From Nitrospiraceae bacterium (GTDB lineage: Bacteria > Nitrospirota > Thermodesulfovibrionia > UBA6902), in contig CP070632.1 in assembly GCA_020356065.1 (NCBI GenBank), positions 534,437 through 598,436 on the forward strand: a stretch of 64,000 nt of DNA. The letters are read 5' to 3'. Shown here piece after piece: positions 4,223 through 63,668 of this stretch. A model generated the notes under the pieces. The model had not been told where the DNA came from, searched no databases, and saw only the letters and a program-made list of their open reading frames with translations. Position 1 is the first letter of the stretch; each line of letters opens with the position of its first letter. The position numbers and the translations under genes were made by a program.

Positions 4223-4861
4223 ATGAATGTGCAGAATATTTTAACAGAAGAAGACATATCTATCCTGCAGGAAATAATGAATATTTCCTTTGGACAGTCA
4301 GCTGCTGACCTTGCGGATGTAATAAGTACGAATGTTGTTTTGAGTGTTCCTTACATAAGTATTGTTGACGTGCCGGACTTGCCCGAGTATATCAGAAGTC
4401 ACGTTAAGGATTATAAAAATATAAATATTGTTGAGCAAAAATTCTGGGGGAAATTCAGGGGAGATGCTCTTCTGATATTTTCATCAGGTGCAGGAAAAGA
4501 GCTTATATCGCTGCTTCAGAGTGATGTCAGCGAGCATGCTTCTGCTGACCCGTTTGATGTATTGGAGAGGGAAACCTTAATGGAAGTGGGAAATATTCTT
4601 ATCGGGGCATGTGTTGGAAAATTCTCTGAGCTGCTCAAGGATGTTGTGACCTATACACCACCGAGAGTCGTTGTAGAGAAAGATTATCGTGAGGCGATTA
4701 CCAATGGTCATTATGATCCGGATAAGTCAGCAATTATTTTAAAAACCGACTTTCGTTTTGATGAAGGGGATGTAAGCGGTTTCCTGTTCCTTGTGACGAG
4801 CAACGACTCAGTTTTGTGGCTGAAGGATGCCCTCCGGACATTTATCGAACAATATGAATGA
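4223..4861 (+). CDS. cheC: CheC-type CheY-P phosphatase
   Basis: The 212-residue protein carries both copies of the CheC/CheX/FliY phosphatase signature (D/S/E)-x3-E-x2-N-x22-P. The first is S13, E17, N20, P43; the second is E117, E121, N124, P147. Both active sites therefore look intact. Known CheC proteins remove phosphate from CheY-P and may bind CheD, but no cheD is in the window. The gene sits between a CheY-like receiver and a diguanylate cyclase, overlapping the latter by ATGA. This suggests a phosphorelay branch that meets c-di-GMP signalling. A CheZ-type phosphatase is encoded separately at 25044-26282. Confidence 0.88.
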   Translation: MNVQNILTEEDISILQEIMNISFGQSAADLADVISTNVVLSVPYISIVDVPDLPEYIRSHVKDYKNINIVEQKFWGKFRGDALLIFSSGAGKELISLLQSDVSEHASADPFDVLERETLMEVGNILIGACVGKFSELLKDVVTYTPPRVVVEKDYREAITNGHYDPDKSAIILKTDFRFDEGDVSGFLFLVTSNDSVLWLKDALRTFIEQYE

Positions 4862-5760
4862 TACTTAATCAGGTTTTTGATGCTATAAACATCGGCATAG
4901 TCATCCTTGACCGGGAAATGAAGGTGAAAAAGTGGAACCGGTGGATGGAAATCAACAGCGGCATTAACGCCGATAAAATTTTAGACTCTTCAGTATATGA
5001 TTTTTTCCCCGACCTGGAAAATCCAAAATTCATAAGAAGCTGCAAATCCGTTTTTTCTTTTGGGAATTTCTGTTTTTTTTCACAAAAGCTGCATAAGCAT
5101 CTTTTTCAGTTCAAGTCGTCAGGTTATCTTAATGCAGATTTCGAGTTTATGCAGCAGAATTGTGCAATGGGTCCTTTGCGGAATGAGGAAAACGAGATAC
5201 AGTACCTGTTTATTTATGTCCAGGATGTTACAGAGGTCGCCGTCTACGAAAGAAAACTGATAGAAATGAACATGAAAGACGGCCTTACAGGTATTTATAA
5301 CAGGAGATATCTTGAATCAAGACTGAAGGAAGAATTCAGCCGCCACAAGCGATACTCGGGAAATTTTAGTGTAATCATGTTTGACTTAGACCATTTTAAA
5401 GATGTGAATGATGAGCATGGCCATCAGTGTGGTGATTTTATTTTAAAGTCAGTATGTGCCAGGATCAGCTCAATCATAAGAAATATTGATATCTTTGCCC
5501 GTTACGGCGGGGAAGAGTTCTGTTGTCTGCTTCCTGAAACGAGCAAGGATGGGGCAATTTATGTTGCTGAAAGGTTTCGAGAGGCAATTGAGGAACAGGA
5601 CAATCATTTTGATGATCTCAATATCAAGGTAACAATCAGTCTCGGTGTTGCAAATTTAAAGGATAACATTTCATCTCCGGAAATGTTACTCAAGATGGCT
5701 GATGATGCCCTGTACAGAGCTAAGAATGAGGGACGTAACAGGGTCGAATGCGGTAAATAG
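4858..5760 (+). CDS. PAS-GGDEF diguanylate cyclase
   Basis: The 300-residue soluble protein has an N-terminal PAS domain (about 1-125) and a GGDEF domain (about 135-298). The active site reads GGEEF (about 217-221), and an RxxD inhibitory site (RNID) lies five residues before it, so it is likely an active, feedback-inhibited c-di-GMP synthase. No membrane segment is seen. Its start overlaps the stop of the CheC gene (ATGA), implying translational coupling and a shared role. The PAS ligand cannot be predicted. The FlrA/FleQ-type regulator gene begins 47 bases later. Confidence 0.92.
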   Translation: MILNQVFDAINIGIVILDREMKVKKWNRWMEINSGINADKILDSSVYDFFPDLENPKFIRSCKSVFSFGNFCFFSQKLHKHLFQFKSSGYLNADFEFMQQNCAMGPLRNEENEIQYLFIYVQDVTEVAVYERKLIEMNMKDGLTGIYNRRYLESRLKEEFSRHKRYSGNFSVIMFDLDHFKDVNDEHGHQCGDFILKSVCARISSIIRNIDIFARYGGEEFCCLLPETSKDGAIYVAERFREAIEEQDNHFDDLNIKVTISLGVANLKDNISSPEMLLKMADDALYRAKNEGRNRVECGK

Positions 5761-5769
5761 ACAACATAT

Positions 5770-5783
5770 GTCAAACTCTTGAC
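5770..5783. promoter_or_regulatory. FleQ/FlrA-like inverted repeat in front of flrA
   Basis: GTCA-AACTCT-TGAC lies 24 bases before the flrA start. The form GTCA-N6-TGAC matches the known Pseudomonas FleQ site (GTCAATAAATTGAC). The right arm overlaps a possible -35 hexamer TTGACG (5779-5784), so bound activator could repress its own gene. Identical arms occur at 7254, 33037 and 56992. Confidence 0.55.
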
Positions 5784-5807
5784 GTTGATTTTTTAATATG
5801 GCAATAT

Positions 5808-7211
5808 ATGTCTATGCATCGCATTCTGGTAATTGATGATGAGCAGTCCATCAGAGAGCTTCTAAAAGACTTTCTCCAAACCAAAGACTTTGAAGTCATA
5901 ACATCTTCAGACGGCGAGACAGGCGTTCAATTGCTGAAACAGGAAAAATTTGATCTATTTTTAATGGATCTTATGATGCCCGGTATCAGCGGACTGGATG
6001 TTCTCAGAGCATGCCGGTCTGAAGATATTGATGTCCCCTGTATCGTAATAACGGCCCATGCAAGTGTACAGACCGCTGTTGAAGCCATGAAACTGGGTGC
6101 TTACGATTATCTCCCCAAACCTTTTGTACTTGAAGATGTGAATATGACCATACATAGGGCCCTTGATGTTTATAGCCTGAAAGAGGAAAACAGGAGCCTT
6201 AAATCAGAACTCAAGAAACAGAATACCTATAATAAGAGGGCACTTGACCGGATAATTGGCACGTCTGCGTCCATACAGAGTGTTATAAAATTTGTAGAAA
6301 AAATTGCTGATACTGACAGCACTGTTCTGATAACAGGAGAAAGCGGTACCGGCAAGGAACTGATAGCAAAAAATATTCACTATAACAGTAACAGGGCAGG
6401 CAAACCCTTTGTGCCGTTAAATTGTGCTGCAATTCCCAAAGACATTCTGGAATCTGAACTGTTCGGCCATGAAAAAGGAGCCTTTACAGGTGCTGTTTCT
6501 ACGAGAATAGGCAGGTTTGAACTTGCCAATCAGGGGACTCTTCTCCTTGATGAGATAGGAGAGCTTGCTCCTGCCCTTCAGGTAAAACTGTTAAGGGTAC
6601 TTCAGGAGAAGGAATTTGAAAGGGTGGGCAGCATAAAGACCATCAAAACTGACGCACGGATCATTGCCGCAACGAACAGAGATCTAGAAAAGGCTGTCAG
6701 GGATGGGGACTTCAGGGAAGACCTGTATTATAGACTGAATGTAATACCCCTGAAGCTTCCTCCTTTAAGAAATATGAAAGAAGATATCCCCCTGATGATT
6801 GACCATTTTATCACTCACATGTCCAAGCGAAAGGGAATGTCGGTTCCGACCATTACGAAAGAAACCATGAAGTGCCTGACAAGTTACCATTGGCCGGGAA
6901 ATGTCAGAGAGCTTGAGAATCTCATAGAGAGACTGATCATCTTAAATGACGGCAGTGTTGTTGAACCGGTTGATCTTCCTGAAAGAATGCACTCAAAAGT
7001 ACGTGCAGGAAGTGTATCGGGGAAGGAAAAATTGTCACCGGATGGTGTCGATCTGAATATCATGCTGGAAGAAATCGAAAATAATATGATTATTCAGGCC
7101 CTTGAGATCTCTAGGGGTGTCAAGAGTAAAGCAGCCAGCCTTTTGGGTCTCAACAGGACCACCCTGATAGAGAAGATGAAAAAGAAGGCGATAGAATTTA
7201 ACGCATCCTGA
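5808..7211 (+). CDS. flrA: FlrA/FleQ-type sigma-54 activator with intact receiver
   Basis: The 467-residue protein has a receiver (D54 in LMDLMMP, intact acidic pair), an AAA+ domain with a GESGTGKE Walker A (about 177-184) and a perfect GAFTGA sigma-54 loop (near 224), and a C-terminal Fis-type helix-turn-helix. The recognition helix reads RTTLIEKM, closely resembling FleQ/FlrA rather than NtrC. This fits a role as master regulator of class II flagellar genes. Unlike FleQ, whose receiver is degenerate, this one keeps its acceptor Asp. An inverted repeat like the FleQ site lies just upstream, suggesting autoregulation. ATG 5814 is an alternative start. Confidence 0.88.
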   Translation: MSMHRILVIDDEQSIRELLKDFLQTKDFEVITSSDGETGVQLLKQEKFDLFLMDLMMPGISGLDVLRACRSEDIDVPCIVITAHASVQTAVEAMKLGAYDYLPKPFVLEDVNMTIHRALDVYSLKEENRSLKSELKKQNTYNKRALDRIIGTSASIQSVIKFVEKIADTDSTVLITGESGTGKELIAKNIHYNSNRAGKPFVPLNCAAIPKDILESELFGHEKGAFTGAVSTRIGRFELANQGTLLLDEIGELAPALQVKLLRVLQEKEFERVGSIKTIKTDARIIAATNRDLEKAVRDGDFREDLYYRLNVIPLKLPPLRNMKEDIPLMIDHFITHMSKRKGMSVPTITKETMKCLTSYHWPGNVRELENLIERLIILNDGSVVEPVDLPERMHSKVRAGSVSGKEKLSPDGVDLNIMLEEIENNMIIQALEISRGVKSKAASLLGLNRTTLIEKMKKKAIEFNAS

Positions 7212-7253
7212 TGTTTCATAAACAATAGTCCGTACTCCACTTACATTTCAAAC

Positions 7254-7267
7254 GTCATTATTATGAC
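7254..7267. promoter_or_regulatory. FleQ/FlrA-like inverted repeat upstream of the flrBC operon
   Basis: GTCA-TTATTA-TGAC sits within a larger perfect palindrome (CGTCAT...ATGACG, 7253-7268). It lies about 43 bp upstream of the -24 element of the sigma-54 promoter at 7309-7325. It matches the GTCA-N6-TGAC pattern seen before flrA, fliL and the glycosyltransferase gene. It could instead be a weak transcript-end hairpin for flrA, but no T-tract follows. Confidence 0.55.
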
Positions 7268-7308
7268 GATCCTCAAACAGAAAATCATTTAAAATCAAAC
7301 TGATATCT

Positions 7309-7325
7309 TTGGCATGCTAATTGCT
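7309..7325 (+). promoter_or_regulatory. sigma-54 promoter of the AMIN-TPR/flrBC operon
   Basis: TTGGCAT-GCTAA-TTGCT has GG at 7311-7312 and GC at 7323-7324, exactly ten bases apart, matching the TGGCAC-N5-TTGCA consensus. The predicted start (about 7335-7336) is one or two bases before the annotated ATG at 7337. The transcript would be nearly leaderless, or translation starts further in. Confidence 0.8.
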
Positions 7326-7336
7326 TTTTTGTTGGC

Positions 7337-9802
7337 ATGAATTATTTTCAGATGTTTTCAGCCTTGATATTATCACTGATACTGTTTCACGCACATACTG
7401 TAAGTGCTGCTTTCAGGACAGACAGTCCGAATTCAGTTGATCTGAGGTATGGAAATCACAAAGAATACGTGAGAGTCGTAATCGAAGGACCAGACGATGT
7501 TATCTCCCGTGGGAAAGTAAAACATGCAGAAAGTGAAGTAAGCGTTACCTTTGCAGATATGGATCTAAGGGTAAAGAATAAAAAGCTTCCCATATCTTAC
7601 AGCATAGACAAAAATCGTCTGTTCTTTCGAAAAAGAAATCTTGAAAAGATCGAAGTTCGCACTCTTGCGAATCCGAGCAGACTGGTCATTGATTTTTATG
7701 AGAGAAAAACAGAAAAAGAGCAGGCACACACCAGCCAGGTAAAAAAAATGACTGAACAATTGAAAAATATAAAGGCCATGCCAGAGAAGAAAAAGGGGCA
7801 GAAAACTGCCGGGCCTGAATCGACCAATAAGAAAGAAGTGAAAACGGCGAAAACCATGCCAGAAAAAAATCCGAGTGAAACAATGAATGAAAAGGAGGAC
7901 ACAAACAAGATCAACACAAATGAGATCAAGCATGATACAGAGCCAAAGCAAATCAGTACTGCTGGTGAAGAAAAAACCGCTGTTTTGAAGGATGACAGAA
8001 GTCTTAAAGAGTACGATAAAGTGGATAAAAGTAATATAAGGGATTTTGTTCCACCGCAGTATAAAAAATTATGGACTCTGCTTGAGTCCGGCAATAATTA
8101 TGGTTTATTAACAGTTCTGCCCGAGTATAAACCTGAAGATGCCCAGTCTGTTGCCATATACCATTATATGTACGGCGCTGCAAGTTATGGTGCAAAACAG
8201 TATTTCGATGCGATTGAACATTTAAGACTGGCATATATCTATGCTTCACATCCGGCAGTAAAAGAGAAATCACTGTCTATGAGGGCCAGGTCATATATGG
8301 ATGCAGGTTTTTATCAGGAGGCAAGAGCAGATTATATGATGCTCATCAATAATTTTCCATCATCAAAAAGAATAAGAAAAGCGCATCTTGGATTGGCTAA
8401 CAGCCTTTCAATGCTCGGACTCTACAGTAAGGCGATTGCCGAATATGACAAAGCGGGACAGGGTGCAATCGTACTCTATAGCAAAGCCAATGCATTGCAG
8501 CGCCTGGAACGGGTCAAGGAGGCTGAGACGATGTATGTAAAAGCCAAACTTGCAGATGAAACGTATCTGGATAGATCGCCTGAAACGTACTTTCTTCTTG
8601 GGGAGAACATGAGAATGTCCGGAAATCTGTCAGCAGCAGAAAAACATCTATCTAAAATAACAACCGGAGAATACAAGGACAGTGCGCGAATAAGTCTGGG
8701 TCTTATCGCGCTTAAAAAAGGTAAGGTAAATGAAGCATTCAGTCACTTTTCGTCAGCTTCTCTTGCGAAGAACAGAAAAATTAAAATCAGTGGTCTTTTT
8801 AATCTTGCCCTGGCCCAGGTTTCTGCCGGAAAAATTAAGGAAGCGACACAGAGTCTGGAGACAATCAGACACGATCACGTGGATTCATATGTATATAAAG
8901 ACACTCTTCTCGCACTCTCAAAGATATACAGAAAAGAACATGAAATAAGAAAATCCCTTTCATTGCTAAAGGAGCTGGTGTATGGCAAACATCCTCCGCA
9001 GGAAGCATTTGTTGAACTGGAAAAGATCATACTGGAGAGCGGTAAAGACGATGACGGTCAACAAAAGGATAAAATGAGTGTCTCAGATATCTGGAAAGAA
9101 GTTGGTCAATGGCTTATCGATGAAAAGAGGGAATCGTTTCTGGTCGATGTTTCAGACAAGCTAAGAAACAATGGTCTGCTTTTTCTTGAATTGTCCAGCT
9201 GGTTAGTAAAAAACGCTTCGCAGGAGACCAAGGCAGTCGCTGCACTCAACCTTGCCGACTACTACGCTGATATCGGAGAAATCAGCCTGGCGAAAATATA
9301 CATAGCGATGGCAGTAAATAAAAAGATTCCTGATGATGATGTTTTAAGGACCGAAGTAAAAATACTGAATGCCAGCGGAAAAAGGAAACTGGCGATCGAC
9401 AAACTGGTACAGATGAGAAATATCCAGGACCGTGATATTGAAATGCTCGGAAATATAATTTTTAATATTCGCAACCCGGAATCAGCAACCGTAAAAAAAG
9501 GGATAGAGTTCTATGAAAAAGTGGTTAGCAAATCTGACTGGAATGCAGAAGTATATACGAGGCTGGCGGATCTTATGGATGCGTCCGGACGAACATCAGA
9601 CGCAATTAAATATTACAGGATCGCGCATGAGAAAAATCCTGAGGATGAATGGACCATGTACCGAATAGGTCGTTGGTCGACGGGCGATGAATCAGAGAAA
9701 ATGTACAGTCAGTTGCAGGATAATGAATCGCTGCTGGGACGTGTTGCAAAGACAGAGCTGACAGGGATGAATATATTAAATAAGATTCACGAGGTGTATT
9801 AA
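7337..9802 (+). CDS. secreted AMIN-like / TPR repeat protein of the flrBC operon
   Basis: The 821-residue protein begins with a signal peptide (about 1-24, cut after VSA). An AMIN-like beta-sandwich follows (about 28-115, ending LVIDFYE), then a Lys/Glu-rich linker (about 118-235) and many TPR-type helical repeats (about 240-820). AMIN domains in other proteins bind peptidoglycan or envelope machines, so a periplasmic scaffold role is plausible. It is translationally coupled to the flrB kinase gene (TAATG), suggesting it senses or helps flagellar assembly. No exact named homologue is recognised. The start has no Shine-Dalgarno and lies next to the predicted transcription start; ATG 7352 is the other possibility. 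Confidence 0.8.
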   Translation: MNYFQMFSALILSLILFHAHTVSAAFRTDSPNSVDLRYGNHKEYVRVVIEGPDDVISRGKVKHAESEVSVTFADMDLRVKNKKLPISYSIDKNRLFFRKRNLEKIEVRTLANPSRLVIDFYERKTEKEQAHTSQVKKMTEQLKNIKAMPEKKKGQKTAGPESTNKKEVKTAKTMPEKNPSETMNEKEDTNKINTNEIKHDTEPKQISTAGEEKTAVLKDDRSLKEYDKVDKSNIRDFVPPQYKKLWTLLESGNNYGLLTVLPEYKPEDAQSVAIYHYMYGAASYGAKQYFDAIEHLRLAYIYASHPAVKEKSLSMRARSYMDAGFYQEARADYMMLINNFPSSKRIRKAHLGLANSLSMLGLYSKAIAEYDKAGQGAIVLYSKANALQRLERVKEAETMYVKAKLADETYLDRSPETYFLLGENMRMSGNLSAAEKHLSKITTGEYKDSARISLGLIALKKGKVNEAFSHFSSASLAKNRKIKISGLFNLALAQVSAGKIKEATQSLETIRHDHVDSYVYKDTLLALSKIYRKEHEIRKSLSLLKELVYGKHPPQEAFVELEKIILESGKDDDGQQKDKMSVSDIWKEVGQWLIDEKRESFLVDVSDKLRNNGLLFLELSSWLVKNASQETKAVAALNLADYYADIGEISLAKIYIAMAVNKKIPDDDVLRTEVKILNASGKRKLAIDKLVQMRNIQDRDIEMLGNIIFNIRNPESATVKKGIEFYEKVVSKSDWNAEVYTRLADLMDASGRTSDAIKYYRIAHEKNPEDEWTMYRIGRWSTGDESEKMYSQLQDNESLLGRVAKTELTGMNILNKIHEVY

Positions 9803-52377: not shown

Positions 52378-53226
52378 ATGGGTTTAGTCGTCAATACTAA
52401 TCTACTTTCTCTGAATGCTCAGAGAAGCCTTAATCGTACACAGAGTAAACTTGGAACATCTGTAGAGAGACTGTCTTCAGGTCTGAGGATCAACTCCGCA
52501 AAAGATGATGCTGCAGGAATGGCCATTTCAATGAAGCTGACTGCTCATGTCAGGGGGCTCAACCAGGCGGTCAGAAATGCGCAGGATGGTATATCTGTTG
52601 TTCAGATTGCAGAAGGTGGCATGAATGAGATTCACAACATCCTTACCAGGATGAGAGAGCTTTCAATGCAGTCTGCTACCGGAACACTGTCAGCTTCTGA
52701 CAGGACAGCTCTGCAGACTGAGTTTTCAGACCTTAAGAGCGAAATAGACAGAATATCCGACACAGTTGATTTCAACGGTTTTAAACTGATGGATGGAAGT
52801 TTGAGTGCTACCGGCGTGTCACTCCAGGTCGGTATCAATAACACGGCAAATGACAGAATCAAGATCTCCACAACAACATTTGGAAATATTGATGCATCAG
52901 CTCTCGGTCTCACGACAGCTGCACTGTCAAGCATTGATGCAGTCGGTGCTGCCCAGTCAATGCTGACTGTCATTGACAGCGCTATTTCAACTGTCTCTAC
53001 GAGGAGAGGTAATCTCGGTGCTGTTCAGAACAGGCTCGGCAGTACAATTGCCAACCTTGAGATCGCAGCCGAAAACCTTTCAGCTGCAAACTCAAGAATT
53101 GCGGATGCTGACTTTGCAATAGAGACAGCAAACCTTACAAGAAGTCAGATCATTCTGCAGGCTGGAGTTGCCGTTCTTTCACAGGCAAACACAATCCCGC
53201 AGTATGCTCTTCAGCTGTTGTCGTAA
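52378..53226 (+). CDS. fliC: flagellin, the filament protein
   Basis: The 282-residue flagellin has conserved N-terminal (INTNLLSLNAQRSL type; RLSSGLRINSAKDDAAGMAI) and C-terminal (ADFAIETANLTRSQIILQAG) D0/D1 regions. The D2/D3 outer domains are essentially missing, giving a compact filament. Ser and Thr are plentiful in the exposed middle (about 145-210), possible glycosylation sites. It is the only flagellin gene in the window. A perfect sigma-28 promoter and a strong AAGGAGGA precede it. Confidence 0.97.
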   Translation: MGLVVNTNLLSLNAQRSLNRTQSKLGTSVERLSSGLRINSAKDDAAGMAISMKLTAHVRGLNQAVRNAQDGISVVQIAEGGMNEIHNILTRMRELSMQSATGTLSASDRTALQTEFSDLKSEIDRISDTVDFNGFKLMDGSLSATGVSLQVGINNTANDRIKISTTTFGNIDASALGLTTAALSSIDAVGAAQSMLTVIDSAISTVSTRRGNLGAVQNRLGSTIANLEIAAENLSAANSRIADADFAIETANLTRSQIILQAGVAVLSQANTIPQYALQLLS

Positions 53227-53672: not shown

Positions 53673-55043
53673 ATGTCAAGCTTCAGCATTGGCGGACTCA
53701 ACACCGGGATAGATTATAATGAGTTGATATCTCAACTCATAGAGATCAGACGACGTCCCATTGACATACTTGAAACCAAAAGGACTGATTATAACAGCAA
53801 GATAAGCACATATGCTGAGCTGTCAACAAAGCTTTCAGACCTCAGAAACGCACTCAATAAATTAAAAACAACTTCAGGTTTTTATGTGAAGACGAGCTCT
53901 GCGAGTGATTCGACCGTGATTGATTCAACAGCAACAGGGACAGCATCTGTGGGGAATTACTCGGTGTCCGTTACTACCCTCGCTTCAGCAGAAAAGGAAG
54001 TGCATAATGGGACGGGTCTGACCGCATCAACAGACATTGTAAACAGCAGTGGAAGTGATAAGGTCTTCCAATATACATATGGAACATCGCAAAGATCTCT
54101 GACAGTTGCCGATGGTACTACTTTAGATGGTCTGAAGAATCTTATTAATGATGATACGAGTAATCCCGGAGTTACAGCAACTGTGGTTAACGATGGAACA
54201 AATTATCGTCTGGTAATATCCGGGAATGAAACAGGCGCTGCAAACACGGTCACTATAGATACAGGTACAACACTTGATGGTACAGGCAGTACAGTTGATT
54301 TTACTGCTTCTGCATTTGCAGAAAATAAAACTGCGGCTGATGCTGAGTTTACGGTAGACGGCCTGCAGATAACCAGAAGCACGAATTCCATCAGTGATGT
54401 GATTAATGGAGTAACTCTGACATTAAAGAAAGAAAATTCATCATCTACCGTTACGGTTTCAGCTGATAATGAGTCAATTAAGGAACAGATACAGGAATAT
54501 GTGACTTCTTATAACGATGTGGTTTCATTTATTTCGACCAATTCTATTTATGACACAAATACCAAAGAAAGCGGAATTTTCGTCGGGGAGGGAACCACAA
54601 GACATATCCAGGACAATTTAAGAACTCTGGCTTCAAACAGTGTGTCAGGGCTTTCAGGCAGTCTGAGCATACTTGCTCAGATCGGCATAACTACGGATTA
54701 TGAAACCGGCAATCTTGAGATTAACTCAGCCACATTGGAAACCAAACTTGGAACGAATCTGGATGACGTGGCAGATCTGTTTAAAGACAGTACTGAAGGG
54801 ATAGCGGTAAAGATGTCAGATTATATTTCTAATATCTTAAGTAAGGTTGATGGATCCATCGAGTTAAGGAAAGATGGCCTGCAGGATGTTATTAACAGCA
54901 TTTCAAATACAATAAGAAACATGGAGTACCGGCTTGAAAAGGCAGAGGATGATATGGTGAGAAAGTTTTCAGCTCTGGAACTGCTTGTGGGAAATTACAA
55001 CACCATCGGTAATTACCTGACTGGATTTTCAACTCAGGCTTAG
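53673..55043 (+). CDS. fliD: FliD, filament cap
   Basis: The 456-residue cap protein has the conserved N-terminus (SIGGLNTGIDYNELISQLIEI) and C-terminal coiled coil (LRKDGLQDVINSISNTIRNMEYRL). The central domain is Ser/Thr-rich and includes a flagellin-hook-like repeat region. It folds incoming flagellin at the tip. AAGGAGG precedes the ATG. Confidence 0.96.
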   Translation: MSSFSIGGLNTGIDYNELISQLIEIRRRPIDILETKRTDYNSKISTYAELSTKLSDLRNALNKLKTTSGFYVKTSSASDSTVIDSTATGTASVGNYSVSVTTLASAEKEVHNGTGLTASTDIVNSSGSDKVFQYTYGTSQRSLTVADGTTLDGLKNLINDDTSNPGVTATVVNDGTNYRLVISGNETGAANTVTIDTGTTLDGTGSTVDFTASAFAENKTAADAEFTVDGLQITRSTNSISDVINGVTLTLKKENSSSTVTVSADNESIKEQIQEYVTSYNDVVSFISTNSIYDTNTKESGIFVGEGTTRHIQDNLRTLASNSVSGLSGSLSILAQIGITTDYETGNLEINSATLETKLGTNLDDVADLFKDSTEGIAVKMSDYISNILSKVDGSIELRKDGLQDVINSISNTIRNMEYRLEKAEDDMVRKFSALELLVGNYNTIGNYLTGFSTQA

Positions 55044-55054
55044 GTGAAGTTTCA

Positions 55055-55453
55055 ATGGATATAGCAGCTTATAAAAAAACAGTTATTCAAACCACGGACA
55101 GAGTTCAGATAGTGCTCATGTTATATGACGGTGCAATAAATCACTTAAAAAGAGCCAAGGTCAAAATCAATAGTGGTGATAACATTTCCAAAGGACATCA
55201 TTTTTCAAAAGCAACCTCCATTGTCAGCGAGCTTTCCAATGTTCTTGATATGGAAAAGGGCGGTGACATATCAGTGAATCTGAGACGTCTGTACGACTTC
55301 GTGTTGCAGCGCCTTCTTTATGCAAACTTACATAATGATGTCAAAGCATTGGAGGAGGCAGAGGAAGTCTTAAGTACAATCAGGAGTGGCTGGAAAGAGA
55401 TGATGGATGGCATGAAACATTATCAGCAGACAGGAGCAAGTGCGAGCCTGTAG
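55055..55453 (+). CDS. fliS: FliS, flagellin export chaperone
   Basis: A 132-residue helical chaperone with the family core (TTDRVQIVLMLYDGAINHLKRA; LYDFVLQRLLYANLHNDVKALEEAEEVLS). It prevents early flagellin polymerisation. It lies 11 bases after fliD and closes the filament operon. A paralogue is at 61747-62115. Confidence 0.95.
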   Translation: MDIAAYKKTVIQTTDRVQIVLMLYDGAINHLKRAKVKINSGDNISKGHHFSKATSIVSELSNVLDMEKGGDISVNLRRLYDFVLQRLLYANLHNDVKALEEAEEVLSTIRSGWKEMMDGMKHYQQTGASASL

Positions 55454-55742
55454 TAAATCGTGTACTATCAATACCTTTTTTAAAACCTTCCTTCAATTCA
55501 AATTCAACGACGATTCTGCAATATTTCGACTGCTGTATTGTCATTCGTACATGTATCAATAATATCTGCTTTGCCGCATGTTCAATTCAGTTTAATCACC
55601 TGCATGTTAACCTTAACTTTATTAAATCTGATTTGTTGTGGTACAGTTACAAAAGTGGAGACCATCAGACGGGTGTCATGAGCAGGAGATCAAGTGCCTG
55701 ATACGTATAAGAGCTATCATTAGTCAAACTAAACACTTAATT

Positions 55743-56975
55743 ATGAAAGAGTCCGCAGTAACAGACGAAGGCATTCCCGTTGGTCAATTCATTTTATTTC
55801 CATCAAATTTATCGAACTCTCCGTGTGAAATGTGTGGAAAATGCTGCAAAAACAACTGGTCGATAGAGTTAAGTGAAGAAGAGTTTCTCCGATATAAAAC
55901 GATCCTGAAAAATTCTAATTTACCTGAAGAATATGAATCATTTTCCGAAGAGATTCAGCAAAATGGAGAGCCTATGTATAAACTCTTGCTTCGAAATAGT
56001 GGATGTATATTCATGCTTGATGATGACAGGTGTTACATTCATAGTCGGTATGGACCTGAATCAAAGAGCCGCGCCTGCAGATACTTCCCTCTTGAGGTAA
56101 GCGGTTATTCACCTCGTGGAATGCACCTTAAAACAAGCTTTGCCTGTCCTTCAATACTCAGGTCGCTTCTTTCATCTGAAGGGGTAACGATAACCCGGGT
56201 TGACTGGAAAAATAATTTGCGTTGCGCAAGCCATCTTATTTTTTATCGTGGTTACACTATTACGTGGGAAAGACTGTTCTCTCTTAGTGACGCAATGTCA
56301 TGCCTTTTTGTACAAAATTCATTTGATGTAGAACAGAAGCTGCTCATTGCCGGGAAATGGATAAACGATATGTATGAGGCATATAATCTGGGCAATTCAG
56401 CCATGATAGATGTGATGTCGGGCAGGGAATACCTGTTGGATCATAAACAATCCTTTCTTGATGAGTGTGAGCAACTGTCCCCACTGTATGCAGAAAAGAT
56501 GAACCTCATGTCCCATATTGCACATGTCATGTCTATGAGTGCATTTATCAACGAAACAGAGGTAGCAGGTTCCTGCGAGAACACGGGCATTTTAAAATCA
56601 AAAGAGATGATTGCTAATGTAAGAAACCGCTTGCAGGAAGTATATCATGATATCTATCTAAAAGAGCTTCAGAAATTTTCCAATATCATTGCAAAATACA
56701 TATTGCATAAGTTACAGAGCGTGGGAATCTTTACACAAAAGGGATTTATTTACGGTGTTAACCATCTTATTCTCTGTTACGCTTTTTTTCGCATGTTTTT
56801 ACTCACCCAGCTCATATCTGAAAAGAAGACGATTATTTCCGCCGATGTCATAGAAGCGATCACTTTTGTGGAGGAAAATTTTTTTCACAGGAAGTCAGCA
56901 AAATATCTGACATCTCCTCAAATGGCGAAAATTCTTTCTAATCCCAAACTGTTTCATTTTCTACTAAAGCTTTGA
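55743..56975 (+). CDS. FliB-like Cys-cluster protein (possible flagellin lysine N-methylase)
   Basis: The protein (410 residues from ATG 55743) has an N-terminal cysteine cluster C-x2-C-x2-CC (C28, C31, C34, C35). A second set follows in GCIFMLDDDRCYIHSRYG...CRYFP, as in YkgJ-type clusters and in FliB, the flagellin lysine methylase of Salmonella. The remaining helical part (about 150-400) has no clear motif. Its position behind fliS supports a flagellin-modifying role, but the cluster is shared with other families. No Shine-Dalgarno is visible; an upstream GTG (55638) is possible. No promoter was recognised. Confidence 0.6.
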   Translation: MKESAVTDEGIPVGQFILFPSNLSNSPCEMCGKCCKNNWSIELSEEEFLRYKTILKNSNLPEEYESFSEEIQQNGEPMYKLLLRNSGCIFMLDDDRCYIHSRYGPESKSRACRYFPLEVSGYSPRGMHLKTSFACPSILRSLLSSEGVTITRVDWKNNLRCASHLIFYRGYTITWERLFSLSDAMSCLFVQNSFDVEQKLLIAGKWINDMYEAYNLGNSAMIDVMSGREYLLDHKQSFLDECEQLSPLYAEKMNLMSHIAHVMSMSAFINETEVAGSCENTGILKSKEMIANVRNRLQEVYHDIYLKELQKFSNIIAKYILHKLQSVGIFTQKGFIYGVNHLILCYAFFRMFLLTQLISEKKTIISADVIEAITFVEENFFHRKSAKYLTSPQMAKILSNPKLFHFLLKL

Positions 56976-57252: not shown

Positions 57253-60200
57253 ATGAGACTCGAAAACTTTATTTGTGATTCATCCGGAATATATAAAGCA
57301 AGGGAAGAGGGAACACCTGCGGGTTATATGGATGGAGCTGAAAGTTACCTTTTAGATGTACTGGATAAGAGCAGAGATCTAAGCATATTCTCATCTGAAC
57401 TTAAGTCAGCTATAAGGGACTGGCCCAGCCTTTATCATCTCAGCCCATACCGAAACACAATATTGGATTGCCTGGAGCTGAGTGACCGGGACTCACGTGT
57501 CCTGGAGCTGGGAGCCGGTTGCGGAGCCATTACGCGCTGGCTTGGTGAAAATTTTAAGGAAGTCTGCTCAATCGAAGGTGGACTTCACAGGGCCAAGGTT
57601 GCTCATATGCGTTGCCATGATCTGGATAATGTTGATATACATGTAGCCAATTTCCTGGATCTGAAATTATCAGATATGTTTGACATTGCCACGTTAATAG
57701 GAGTGCTTGAGTACAGTCATATGTACCATCCCGTACTTTCAGACTCACCATTTCGATCTGCCTTATACGCTTTGGAGCTTGTTTATAATGCGTTGAGGGA
57801 CAGCGGTATATGTATACTGGCTATTGAGAACAAGTTCGGGCTGAAGTATTTCAGCGGCTCCAGGGAGGACCACTCAGGAAGGGTCTTTGACAGCATTCAG
57901 GGATATCCACGGCTGGACTCTGCTGTTACCTTCAGTTCGGCAGAGATTGAAGATCTGCTGCGGATGGCTGGCTTCTCTTCTTTTAACTTTTATCTCCCTT
58001 TCCCTGATTATAAGCTTGCTTCCACCATCATAAACGGGGAAGAAATAACAGCTGAGAATTATTTGCATAACTGGATTGAAACTCCTTTTAAGGACAGGTG
58101 CTCGGGTCAAAGGACCATGCCTTTTAATGAAAGTCTTGTTACCCGTGAACTGATAAAGGGCAGAATGCTCAAGGACCTATCAAATTCTTTTTTAGTAGTT
58201 GCTTATAAAGGTGATCAGGAAAAAGCCCTAAAGCACCATGGAATAGCACATCAATCATGGATTGCAAAACATTATTCACTTGACAGAAATCCATCATATT
58301 GTAAAAAAGTTACTTTAACAAAGGCTGTAGATGGGACATTAGTAATAGAGAATACACATGCAGTGCCGGTAAAAGATGAGAGATTGAAAACGTCAGACGT
58401 ATTTAAGCAGAAATTATCTGAAGAGATATTTCATCGCGGTGATCAACTCCTTTTTACCGTTTTTAAAATAATGACGCAGAATGATGCTGACCCAAAATTC
58501 CTGAGACTTCTTGAATCTCTGAATCAATTTCTGCTGGATAATTATTCATCAGATAAAGAAGACACGGTGGGCATCCCTCTCTTAAAGGGAGAGGCATATG
58601 ATATTACGTTCTGGAATATTATAGTTGAAGAAAGTACCGGAAAGTGGAGAGTGATTGACAGGGAATGGATTTTCAATGGCTTGATTCCGGTAGACTTTAT
58701 TATATGGCGGAACCTTTTTCATTTAATACTCAGATATAATGCATATTTTCCTGAACCATTTGATCATAAGACGGCCAAGATATTTACCATACAATGTATA
58801 CGCAATTATTATCCGACATTTGATGAGAAACGTTATGACCAGTCCCATGACATGGATGACTATTTCCAGCATTATGTTGAACATGGAACTCTTCCCTGTT
58901 CATTAGATCAATTGCCGGTTTGTATGCCCTTTGAGCAGCATCATGCAGATCATTCAGAACTATTGCCTGATTCTGCTGAACATACAAATAAAAATCACGA
59001 AGAGGTAGTAACATATGAACTTGTTTCAATCATTATCCCAGTCCACAACAAAATTGAATTTACAATAAAATGTATCGAAAACCTTGCAAGAAATACAGCA
59101 TATGAACCATATGAAGTTATTATTATTGACAATGCTTCAAGCGATGGAACTCGAGAATTTCTCGGGAGTCTGGAAGGTGATGTGAAAATCATATCAAATG
59201 CTACAAATCTCGGTTTTGCCATTTCCAATAATCAGGGTGCAAAAAAAGCAAAAGGTGAATACCTCTTGTTTCTGAACAACGATACGATTCCTCAGCCGGG
59301 CTGGCTCGAAAGCATGGTAAAAGTAATGAAAATACAGCAGGATGTAGCTGTAGTAGGAAGTAAACTTATATATCCGGATAATACTATTCAGCATGCCGGT
59401 GTAGTGTTTGATATTTCCGACTCAGCATTGCACATAGCACATTTGTACAAGGGTTTTGACAGGGGTCGAAAGGAAGTGAATCATATACGGGAAATGAATG
59501 CAGTGACTGCTGCATGCATGTTGGTAAAAAAGAATTTCTTTATCACTGTTGGAATGTTCGATGAAGGATTTCTGAATGGGTATGAAGATATTGATTTTTG
59601 TCTGAGAGTAAGAGAGATGGGATACAAAATTATCTATACTCCTGAAAGTGAACTGTATCATTATGAAGAGACAACAGAAGGAAGGCTTTTATATGGTGCA
59701 AGGAACAGCAGACACTTTCTGAATAAATGGAAGGAGAAAATAAAACCGGATATTCAGGATAAGGCAAAAGAAGACGGGTTCAGAATCGAATATACGCCAG
59801 ATAACAGGTCGGTATATATCAAAGTTGATGCAGGAGAGGATCATAAAGAAAGATCATGCGAGACAGATGATGACTATAAAAGTTATTCAAATAAAGATGG
59901 GCAATATAAAATGGAGGTTCATAAGGATGCAGAAGAAGCCAGGAAAATAGCCATCGTAAGAGGAGCCAATCTTAATAAGTGGGAGATGCAGAATTATGAA
60001 CCCATGCTTGAAAGCTTTGATCTCAAGGCTTTTACATCTGATCAAACTAACTTTGATATAAGTAACATTGAAATTCCTGTTGTCCAGCTCCCCTCTAAAC
60101 ATCAGGGCCTTTTAATGGAGATGGAAGGACTGGAAGATGCCCTGGCTGACACGGACCTCGTGTTCTCTGCTGATATAACGTATAAATTTTCGGCACAGGC

Positions 60201-61440
60201 TGTGTATGCCAAACAGCAGTACGGATGTAAAGTGATATGTCTTGAATGGGAAAACATTCCTTATAACTATGAAGAGTATGAAGAGGTACATCATATTAAG
60301 GAAACAGTACGAAAGGGGGCAGATCATTTCATAGCGGCAACTGATCGTGCGAAAGAGGCCCTTATGATTGAGGGCGTTGCTGAAGACAGAATAGATGTCA
60401 TCCCAATGGGCGTTGACCTGAATGTATTCAGGCCTGTTCGGGATGATTTTGAAACGGAACGAGAAAAAACAGGAATTAACAGTAACGACATTGTTGTCCT
60501 GTTTATCGGCAGAATGGTATGGGAAAAGGGTATATATGATTTTCTCAATGCTGCTGCAAAAATATGTCGCGACACTCATCTGAATGATAAACAGATTAAA
60601 TTTATATTAGTAGGTAAGGGCCCTGAGCTTCAAGGAGCACGCGAAAGAGCAGGGGCATTAGGCATTTCCGGTTCAACCATATTCATAGAGGAATATCCAT
60701 ATGATGATATGTACAAGCTTTATAATATGGCCGACCTATTTGTTCTTCCCAGTATTTCGACCAGGTCATGGCAGGAGCAGTTTGGAATGGTACTTATAGA
60801 AAGCATGGCATGTGGAACACCTGTGATATCAACGTACTCCGGCTCCATCCCTGAAGTTGTAGGAGATGCTGGCAAACTTGTCCAGCCGAATGACCACCTT
60901 TCTCTTTATATGGCCCTGAATGAAATGATAGTTAATGACGATCTTCGACATGATCTGGGGAAGAGGGCTCTTAAGAGAGCAAAAAACAAGTTTGATGCAA
61001 AAATGATAGCTGATAAAGTTAAAGCTGTTTTTGATAAGGTGATGTCACGGAAAAATGAATCAGACCTTCTCAGGGAATCACATGAAATCTCTGTTAAGGA
61101 TTGGGAGCAGGGGGATAAGGATAAAGCCTTCAGCCTGGTCTGTGAGATCTTCGGAAAAGATCAGGACAATAAAAATGTTCTTGATTCAGTCATCTCCATG
61201 GGTATGGAACTTGAACAGTATGATAAGGTAGAGGAGTCTATTAAGGAGTTTCTGCTGTGTCATCCCGCAAACCTTGGCGCACTCACTTCACTGTCTGAAG
61301 TATTCATCAGAACCGGAAGGGAAGAGCAGGCTGAAAAAGAGCTGAGAAAAGTGTTGATATTTGATACTCAAAACAGGAGAGCTCATGTACTGCTTGATCA
61401 AATTAAAGAAAACAGGAGTTCTGTAGATCAATTGAGATGA
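57253..61440 (+). CDS. methyltransferase / kinase-like / GT2 / GT4 / TPR multi-domain glycosyltransferase
   Basis: The 1395-residue protein joins several modules. A class I SAM methyltransferase comes first (about 60-280; SAM loop LELGAGCGAI near 85). A kinase-like region follows (about 300-550; YDITFWNIIVEE and VIDREWIF resemble the catalytic and metal-binding parts of aminoglycoside-kinase folds). Then come a GT2 glycosyltransferase (about 590-830; SIIIPVHNK, IIDNASSDGT, FLNNDT), a GT4 glycosyltransferase (about 890-1270; FIGRMVWEKG, and E-x7-E in EQFGMVLIE) and C-terminal TPR-like helices (about 1300-1395). The methyltransferase-kinase pair recalls WbdD, which caps O-antigen chains. It may build and cap a flagellin or surface glycan. 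No membrane segment is seen. ATG 57253 has a modest AAGGA. Confidence 0.85.
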   Translation: MRLENFICDSSGIYKAREEGTPAGYMDGAESYLLDVLDKSRDLSIFSSELKSAIRDWPSLYHLSPYRNTILDCLELSDRDSRVLELGAGCGAITRWLGENFKEVCSIEGGLHRAKVAHMRCHDLDNVDIHVANFLDLKLSDMFDIATLIGVLEYSHMYHPVLSDSPFRSALYALELVYNALRDSGICILAIENKFGLKYFSGSREDHSGRVFDSIQGYPRLDSAVTFSSAEIEDLLRMAGFSSFNFYLPFPDYKLASTIINGEEITAENYLHNWIETPFKDRCSGQRTMPFNESLVTRELIKGRMLKDLSNSFLVVAYKGDQEKALKHHGIAHQSWIAKHYSLDRNPSYCKKVTLTKAVDGTLVIENTHAVPVKDERLKTSDVFKQKLSEEIFHRGDQLLFTVFKIMTQNDADPKFLRLLESLNQFLLDNYSSDKEDTVGIPLLKGEAYDITFWNIIVEESTGKWRVIDREWIFNGLIPVDFIIWRNLFHLILRYNAYFPEPFDHKTAKIFTIQCIRNYYPTFDEKRYDQSHDMDDYFQHYVEHGTLPCSLDQLPVCMPFEQHHADHSELLPDSAEHTNKNHEEVVTYELVSIIIPVHNKIEFTIKCIENLARNTAYEPYEVIIIDNASSDGTREFLGSLEGDVKIISNATNLGFAISNNQGAKKAKGEYLLFLNNDTIPQPGWLESMVKVMKIQQDVAVVGSKLIYPDNTIQHAGVVFDISDSALHIAHLYKGFDRGRKEVNHIREMNAVTAACMLVKKNFFITVGMFDEGFLNGYEDIDFCLRVREMGYKIIYTPESELYHYEETTEGRLLYGARNSRHFLNKWKEKIKPDIQDKAKEDGFRIEYTPDNRSVYIKVDAGEDHKERSCETDDDYKSYSNKDGQYKMEVHKDAEEARKIAIVRGANLNKWEMQNYEPMLESFDLKAFTSDQTNFDISNIEIPVVQLPSKHQGLLMEMEGLEDALADTDLVFSADITYKFSAQAVYAKQQYGCKVICLEWENIPYNYEEYEEVHHIKETVRKGADHFIAATDRAKEALMIEGVAEDRIDVIPMGVDLNVFRPVRDDFETEREKTGINSNDIVVLFIGRMVWEKGIYDFLNAAAKICRDTHLNDKQIKFILVGKGPELQGARERAGALGISGSTIFIEEYPYDDMYKLYNMADLFVLPSISTRSWQEQFGMVLIESMACGTPVISTYSGSIPEVVGDAGKLVQPNDHLSLYMALNEMIVNDDLRHDLGKRALKRAKNKFDAKMIADKVKAVFDKVMSRKNESDLLRESHEISVKDWEQGDKDKAFSLVCEIFGKDQDNKNVLDSVISMGMELEQYDKVEESIKEFLLCHPANLGALTSLSEVFIRTGREEQAEKELRKVLIFDTQNRRAHVLLDQIKENRSSVDQLR

Positions 61441-61746: not shown

Positions 61747-62115
61747 ATGAAGGGAGCTACTATGATTGAAAAGCAGGAGTCAATCGTATCAGACAGGATT
61801 CAGATAGTAACCATGCTTTATGACGGAGCCATCAATTTCATCGGCAAGGCAAGAGAGAAAATGGATGCGGGAGATTCAATCGGTAAATCCCGCTTCATTA
61901 AAAAGACAACAGCCATAGTTCAGGAGCTTTCCGGATCCATTAATATGGAAGGCGGTGAGATCGCAAATAACCTGAAGAATCTTTACGGCTTTGTGCTTGA
62001 AAGTCTCTCAAAGGCTGACATAAGCAATAATCGTGATGCCCTGAATGATGCCGAAAAAGTTGTGGAAATACTGCGGGAAGCATGGCAGGAGATCCAGCAG
62101 GCAGAGAATGTATAA
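61747..62115 (+). CDS. second FliS-type chaperone
   Basis: The 122-residue paralogue of FliS has the same core (VSDRIQIVTMLYDGAINFIGKARE; LYGFVLESLSKADISNNRDALNDAEKV). It lies between the glycosyltransferase and sulfotransferase genes, far from flagellin. In some bacteria FliS-like proteins pair with modification or other export clients, so a dedicated role is possible. AAGGAGG precedes the ATG at seven bases. A possible sigma-54 promoter is upstream, in contrast to the filament fliS. Confidence 0.9.
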   Translation: MKGATMIEKQESIVSDRIQIVTMLYDGAINFIGKAREKMDAGDSIGKSRFIKKTTAIVQELSGSINMEGGEIANNLKNLYGFVLESLSKADISNNRDALNDAEKVVEILREAWQEIQQAENV

Positions 62116-62843: not shown

Positions 62844-63668
62844 ATGAGGTGCATAATCGTTGGATGTCAAAGGTCTGGAACAACATTGCTCAGGCATGTT
62901 CTCAGTGAAGGCAGTGTATTTATATTTGACGAAAACTGGATTGCCTCTTATCTTTACCGCGAAAGGTTCCATGCAAACCAGTGGAGAGGACTGGGTTGGG
63001 AATTTGATGATGAAGATACAGACATTTGGGACAAGAAAGCCCAACAATTCCTGTGGGACACATATCATGCATACTTCAGAAAGGTGAAAGCTCCCCACCA
63101 TGTTGCATGGGGGATGAAATCTCCAGGGTTCAATATGGCATGTGCGATACCATATATGGCGAAATTATTTGCAAGTCTGAAGTTTATCTATCTTGTGCGG
63201 GATCCGAGAGATACATTTGCATCGATGGAACGTTCCAAAAAAATGATGAACTACCTGCCGCGTCATTTTAACAGGGACAGCATAAACAGCCCTGACCTGG
63301 TAGATCTTTCCCAGCGCCCCTATGAATACTGGGCTGATGTTAACAGAGAGATACTTGAACATAGCAGTAGCATGCCTGACCGGTTTTATACTCTAAGGTT
63401 TGAAGAGTGGATGGAGGACCCTCTGGCCAAAACAGAGGCAGTGTGTAATTTTCTTAATATTTCCTTCAGCACCAGTATGCTTGAACCCTTTACAAAAAGG
63501 ATATCCCGGTCTTCGGTGGTATCCATTAGTAAAGATGACTTTGCGTCGGGAAATATTACAGTGCAAAAAACAGCGGTTGGCCGGTGGAAAAGAGACCTTA
63601 CGTCTGCTCAGGCAGAAAAAGTTATGAGGTACTCAGAGGACGTTGCCCGTGAAGTCGGGTACGTCTAG
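62844..63668 (+). CDS. PAPS-dependent sulfotransferase family protein
   Basis: The 274-residue protein begins with the 5'-phosphosulfate loop CQRSGTTLL (8-16). The 3'-phosphate-binding motif LVRDPRDTFAS is near residue 117-127. It resembles the sulfotransferase families that sulfate glycans or proteins. The sulfate acceptor is unknown. Its perfect sigma-54 promoter and position in the modification region suggest sulfation of a flagellar or surface glycan. The ATG overlaps the stop of a seven-codon ORF (ATGA); the ribosome site is weak. Confidence 0.85.
   Translation: MRCIIVGCQRSGTTLLRHVLSEGSVFIFDENWIASYLYRERFHANQWRGLGWEFDDEDTDIWDKKAQQFLWDTYHAYFRKVKAPHHVAWGMKSPGFNMACAIPYMAKLFASLKFIYLVRDPRDTFASMERSKKMMNYLPRHFNRDSINSPDLVDLSQRPYEYWADVNREILEHSSSMPDRFYTLRFEEWMEDPLAKTEAVCNFLNISFSTSMLEPFTKRISRSSVVSISKDDFASGNITVQKTAVGRWKRDLTSAQAEKVMRYSEDVAREVGYV

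Follow-up and report, generated by a model that had tools for sequence, protein, structure and literature searches.

The stretch of DNA analysed here (64,000 nucleotides, hereafter the window) contains at positions 57253-61440 of its plus strand a single open reading frame (ORF) of 1395 codons, which begins with ATG and is open throughout. The encoded protein is probably a cytoplasmic flagellin glycosyltransferase (GT) equipped with a methyltransferase (MT)-kinase of the type found in ORF6^O7 of Klebsiella pneumoniae O7, a pair that would add methyl-phosphate to its glycan. A preliminary description of the window had read the gene as a methyltransferase, a kinase-like domain, GT2, GT4 and tetratricopeptide repeats (TPR) in one 1395-residue chain. 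The ORF and the Pfam searches agree with that order; the kinase-like part (residues ~290-560) matched no Pfam or NCBIfam model. In the protein encoded by another Nitrospirota genome (L021, 8001-12176; 1391 aa) all five parts are present in the same order, with identities to the window protein of 52% (MT-kinase), 62% (GT2), 63% (GT4) and 44% (TPR). Since this ortholog has the identical architecture at the same locus, the fusion is not a sequencing accident. The start codon is backed by the motif MRLE-x-F, conserved in four genomes, and the MT-kinase half occurs as a single copy in the genome of the window.

The gene lies among flagellar genes. It is flanked by two copies of fliS in the window and in two close relatives (L020 and L021), and it follows fliS in a third (L022), which ends at a run of N. 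These three are annotated as Thermodesulfovibrionia or Nitrospiraceae metagenome-assembled genomes (MAGs), and for this reason the window is assigned to Nitrospirota. MAGs make up several of the comparison genomes.

The MT-kinase half is homologous to the ORF6^O7 type

The MT-kinase of ORF6^O7 has been proven to add methyl-phosphate to the end of the chain; the D441A substitution abolished kinase activity, and the methyl-phosphate product was seen by nuclear magnetic resonance and mass spectrometry (Kelly et al. 2024, PMC11231755). Like the window protein, ORF6^O7 combines an N-terminal MT, an unannotated AmiN-like kinase and then GT modules in one polypeptide. Kinship between the two proteins was judged by the published residue numbers and the architecture. 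Residues Y28, Y66, G91, G93, E112 and Y158 of the ORF6^O7 MT correspond to Y25, Y61, G87, G89, E108 and Y154 of the window protein, and in a Pseudomonas homolog (L040) the six are numbered exactly as in ORF6^O7. The catalytic aspartate D441 corresponds to D450 of the window protein and to D443 of L040. All of these positions occupy conserved columns in the alignment made here.

Nitrospirota genomes and two plasmids supplied the homologs of the N-terminal half. The motifs D450-x4-N455 and E471-W472 do not vary among the 19 MT-kinase homologs, and D469 is kept in 18 of them, all 13 flagellar copies included; in L039, a homolog from an exporter locus, the metal-binding D is replaced by E. In a nine-sequence alignment of the family, H340, R345, K351, D450, N455, E471, W472 and R486 are invariant. 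The domain profile scored 29.7 against APH kinases, where column shuffles averaged 13.0 and peaked at 21.7; against the WbdD kinase it scored 28.2, with a highest shuffled score of 24.1. None of 150 shuffles reached the real score in either comparison. The best reading of the middle domain is a kinase of the Klebsiella O7 ORF6^O7 type, not of the WbdD type, and the kinase assignment is strong by homology, not by structure.

The preliminary description had proposed an MT-kinase capping pair fused to the enzymes that build the glycan, an idea that is well supported, and had likened this pair to WbdD. Comparison with WbdD by hhalign aligned the catalytic-loop motif alone, and the authors of the ORF6^O7 study describe its kinase as distinct from that of WbdD (PMC11231755). 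WbdD was dropped as the nearest family in favour of ORF6^O7, whose named MT residues and aspartate all recur in the window protein. The WbdD of E. coli O9/O9a shares with the window protein the MT and kinase pair and a D-x3-W-N catalytic loop, and it caps its glycan with methyl-phosphate, but it has another type of kinase by sequence, a coiled coil and no GT modules, and it serves an ABC-exported O antigen. The WbdD analogy is right in kind and wrong in family.

Several points weigh against the function proposed here. The profile alignments with the APH and WbdD kinases span just 20-23 columns, at the catalytic loop. A profile search of the PDB with the kinase region found no kinase, and a search with the family profile returned methyltransferases only, WbdD not being matched. 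The comparison of folds that the preliminary description had suggested for the middle region was run with two AlphaFold models built from 4 and 3 input sequences, which were poor (mean predicted local distance difference test values of 44 and 46); searches with these low-confidence models supported the MT alone and found no convincing kinase. The evidence for kinship with ORF6^O7 consists of the residue numbers and architecture published in PMC11231755, a sugar hydroxyl is another possible target of the MT, and no glycan data were found for these bacteria. Limited searching of the literature yielded nothing on flagellin glycosylation in Nitrospirota and no report of methyl-phosphate on flagellin.

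An unlikely alternative, although the best of those considered, is that the kinase-like domain has no activity or plays a structural part, and that the MT directly O-methylates a sugar of the flagellin glycan. Plain MTs, which may act in this manner, stand ahead of GT4-TPR in the same slot of relatives, the WbdD of serotype O8, a methyltransferase only (PMC3482155), works by such direct methylation, L039 carries the replaced metal-binding residue, and the models did not confirm a kinase fold. However, catalytic residues should not persist in a dead domain, and the conservation described above, strict for D450, N455, E471 and W472 and complete for D469 in the flagellar copies, argues against this reading.

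Flagellar and exporter-linked copies form separate groups

In a tree of the 19 MT-kinase modules, for which the program flags long branches, one branch with support 98/98 splits the flagellar-locus copies from the exporter-locus copies. Five homologs stand directly after Wzm and Wzt (on a Citrobacter plasmid, on a Pseudomonas plasmid and at three Nitrospira loci), and the cluster of a sixth exporter-type homolog, L043, contains both Wzm and Wzt; the Wzm/Wzt-linked homologs have the layout of Klebsiella O7 ORF6^O7. One genome (G251) carries a copy of each kind. The GT2 module of the window protein is 48-54% identical to those of the Nitrospiria flagellar-locus homologs and 24-37% identical to those of the exporter-locus homologs. 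The Nitrospiria flagellar copies share a downstream series of GT9, DUF3880-type GT and GT9, plus flagellin where the contig extends that far, and these GT9 and DUF3880-type GTs are related to the GTs found downstream of the window.

Four flagellar-locus homologs are much longer, with 2496-3496 aa (L072:5549-14635, L073:2618-13108, L074:5201-14095 and L075:6347-13837); in the three analysed with Pfam, the MT-kinase module is flanked by multiple GT2 and TPR domains. No DNA match to the MT-kinase of L040 was obtained in E. coli genomes, the 15 listed of 225 records for the Citrobacter query matched exporter genes only, and no relative was found in viral contigs.

Between its kinase and its GTs, ORF6^O7 carries a CBM-like domain and a coiled coil; it has two GT2 modules and works with a Wzm/Wzt exporter, whereas the window protein has a linker of only ~30 residues, a GT2, a GT4 and TPRs, and a flagellar setting. 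Wzt_C (PF14524) was not matched in the genome of the window. No coiled coil was predicted in the window protein, L020 or L021 by a home-made COILS script with a hand-entered matrix, which detects the coiled coil of WbdD and predicts none in L040, L043 and L048; the short linker predicted between kinase and GT2 is the firmer argument. Because Wzt_C is unmatched and almost no linker separates kinase and GT2, the window protein appears to lack an exporter-coupled chain-length ruler. It would work like ORF6^O7, in which terminator and polymerase are fused, and it shares the MT-kinase half of that protein, but without the coiled coil or Wzm/Wzt it is not filed among the O-antigen terminators.

It is improbable that the protein terminates the chains of an ABC-exported O antigen or other surface polysaccharide and is placed in the flagellar cluster incidentally. 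Wzm/Wzt genes do adjoin the closest relative that has been characterised, as well as the homologs on plasmids and several of those in Nitrospira, but the exporter-linked copies form a separate branch, the position between the fliS genes is kept in three genomes, the ~30 residues before GT2 leave no room for a coiled-coil ruler, Wzt_C is missing from the matches in this genome, and an MptE-like (Maf-type) protein is among the neighbours in the slots of relatives. Of the two substrates that the preliminary description had named, flagellin or a surface glycan, flagellin fits much better, in view of the fliS genes on both sides, the branch that splits flagellar-locus from exporter-locus homologs, and the lack of a Wzt_C match.

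It is just as improbable that the MT-kinase half has another phospho-transfer role, such as joining an amino acid or glycerol through a phosphodiester, the kind of link seen in the type A flagellin glycan of Clostridioides difficile, instead of a methyl-phosphate cap: phosphate-bearing flagellin glycans exist (PMC4441256), two Nitrospira flagellar homologs have a CDP-glycerol phosphotransferase-like domain (detected by Pfam in L044 and recognised in L047 because that region is similar) and a phosphoenolpyruvate (PEP) mutase-cytidylyltransferase gene lies near L047, but Pfam finds no such phosphotransferase-like domain in the window protein, and the MT-kinase half of this protein and the ORF6^O7 terminator are collinear. 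At the L047 locus itself, the PEP mutase fused to a cytidylyltransferase (L047:5622-7004) lies next to the homolog with the CDP-glycerol phosphotransferase-like N-terminal domain (L047:7166-11434), which hints at a phosphonate or phosphodiester decoration of flagellin there.

The slot between the two fliS genes

The slot that follows fliS was compared in ten relatives of the family of the window. It holds a GT4-TPR protein in eight of them and a protein of the MT-radical SAM-GT2 kind in the other two (domains checked in L107); the second fliS was seen beyond the slot where the stretch of the relative reaches it. In the eight GT4-TPR proteins the GT4 region is 61-76% identical to that of the window protein and the GT4-TPR core 54-73%. 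The slot proteins of the ten relatives have different N-terminal modules, and the MT-kinase profile had no match among them. In G001, which belongs to the same genus as the window, the slot protein is a plain MT-GT4-TPR, and the slot of G030 has an additional MptE-like (Maf-type) TPR protein. Given that the slots of relatives hold GT4-TPR proteins with other fronts and an MptE-like protein, the slot very probably serves as a locus for modifying flagellin. In L107 the MptE-like (Maf-type) protein with TPRs (4345-7383) lies in the slot beside an MT-B12/radical SAM-GT2 protein.

The MT-kinase-GT2 front of the window protein appears to be a swapped module. We tentatively propose, as a possibility somewhat short of even, that the gap between the two fliS genes is, within this family, a site of module exchange, where a conserved GT4-TPR flagellin glycosyltransferase is refitted with different fronts (none, plain MT, MT-GT2-GT2 or MT-kinase-GT2), even between species of one genus. 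In this way a methyl-phosphate terminator that acts on exported O antigens might have been redirected to flagellin in the lineage of the window, and would work there without exporter or coiled-coil ruler.

In the related MAG contig L020 the protein is an MT-kinase-TPR of 699 aa from which GT2-GT4 have apparently been lost. On the same contig (L020:4112-6323) flagellin is frameshifted and FliD is split. As these nearby defects make an assembly collapse possible, the loss is not relied on.

Proposed mechanism and comparison with other systems

The conserved core, formed by GT4 and the C-terminal TPR with GT2 in front, would act in the cytoplasm and assemble a short glycan on flagellin, the TPR part probably serving as a docking surface for flagellin or FliS. 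The kinase would phosphorylate the outer sugar of this glycan, and the MT would next methylate the phosphate, leaving methyl-phosphate on the glycan end. With neither an exporter nor a coiled-coil spacer, the number of GT modules would determine how long the glycan becomes.

Three further systems show partial likeness. The WbbB of K. pneumoniae O12 (PMC11231755), compared by description only, also has all polymerase and terminator modules on one polypeptide, but with other GT families, another terminator and an O-antigen system. In the flagellin glycosylation islands of Geobacillus, variable glycan genes, including methyltransferases, and a second fliS lie within the filament cluster; a term search of the paper (PMC5109656) returned methyltransferase genes and found neither a kinase nor a fused protein mentioned. 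The type A modification of C. difficile 630 (PMC4441256) offers a precedent for a phosphate-containing flagellin glycan, although it consists of GlcNAc with phosphorylated N-methyl-threonine.

Methyl-phosphate caps are known to end the chains of ABC-transported O antigens and to mark them for export. The MT-kinase relatives suggest that sugars of the flagellum carry this unusual cap. If so, the presence of the same enzyme pair in flagellar loci of two Nitrospirota classes would mean that the cap also serves protein-linked glycans, independently of export and chain-length control. The proposal makes a specific and checkable prediction, methyl-phosphate on flagellin glycopeptides in Nitrospirota, and it would offer a clear case of domain exchange inside a single flagellin glycosyltransferase.

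Features of the gene and its surroundings

Coordinates are collected in Table 1. The TPR match, weak in the window protein, is stronger in relatives with the same GT4-TPR core (Pfam E down to 4e-8).

Table 1. Modules of the fusion protein and neighbouring genes in the window
Feature	Position	Strand	Evidence
Whole ORF, 1395 aa: MT - kinase-like - GT2 - GT4 - TPR	57253..61440	+	Reading frame, Pfam, full-length ortholog L021:8001-12176
Class I S-adenosylmethionine (SAM) methyltransferase module, residues 1-250, ORF6^O7-N type	57253..58002	+	PF08241/PF13489, residues 84-241, best E 6.5e-6; six ORF6^O7 residues matched; SAM loop LELGAGCG (84-91)
Kinase-like module, ~residues 290-560, ORF6^O7-N type	58120..58932	+	Family alignment; D441 equivalent is D450; profile scores against APH and WbdD kinases
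Catalytic loop D450-ITFW-N455 and metal-binding I-D469-R-E471-W472 motifs	58600..58668	+	Conservation among 19 homologs
GT2 glycosyltransferase, ~residues 589-830	59017..59742	+	PF00535, residues 592-808, E 3.5e-29; DNASSDGT, FLNNDT, YEDIDFC
GT4 glycosyltransferase, ~residues 900-1268	59950..61056	+	PF00534, residues 1014-1264, E 2.3e-39; EX7E (EQFGMVLIE) at 1175-1183
TPR-like C-terminal region, residues 1271-1395	61063..61437	+	Weak in window protein (Pfam, residues 1337-1383, E 0.025), significant in relatives
Flagellin	52378..53226	+	PF00669/PF00700
FliD filament cap	53673..55043	+	Sequence; order conserved in L021, L022
fliS copy 1 (flagellin chaperone)	55055..55453	+	47.6% identity with the PF02561 protein at 61747 over residues 14-116
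FliB-like flagellin lysine-N-methylase	55638..56975	+	NCBIfam NF038110, 89.3 bits against a cut-off of 85
fliS copy 2, closing the slot that holds the fusion gene	61747..62115	+	PF02561, E 9.9e-29
Sulfotransferase, whose gene opens the glycan island downstream	62844..63668	+	PF13469, E 9.5e-22

Upstream of the fusion gene lie flgK, flgL, fliW, flagellin, flaG, fliD, fliS and the FliB-like lysine methylase gene, fliW and flaG being named by inspection of their sequences. The second fliS and the sulfotransferase gene follow downstream and then, past the window, methyltransferase-like and asparagine-synthase-like genes, a GT-TPR protein, two GTs and a GT9; beyond these glycan genes come a response regulator and motA/motB-like genes. 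Several of the names past the window were also assigned by inspection. The sulfotransferase suggests that the same glycan is possibly sulfated. The FliB-like methylase just upstream of the fusion gene was not seen in L020, L021 or L022, and a homolog occupies the same position in G001 (L106).

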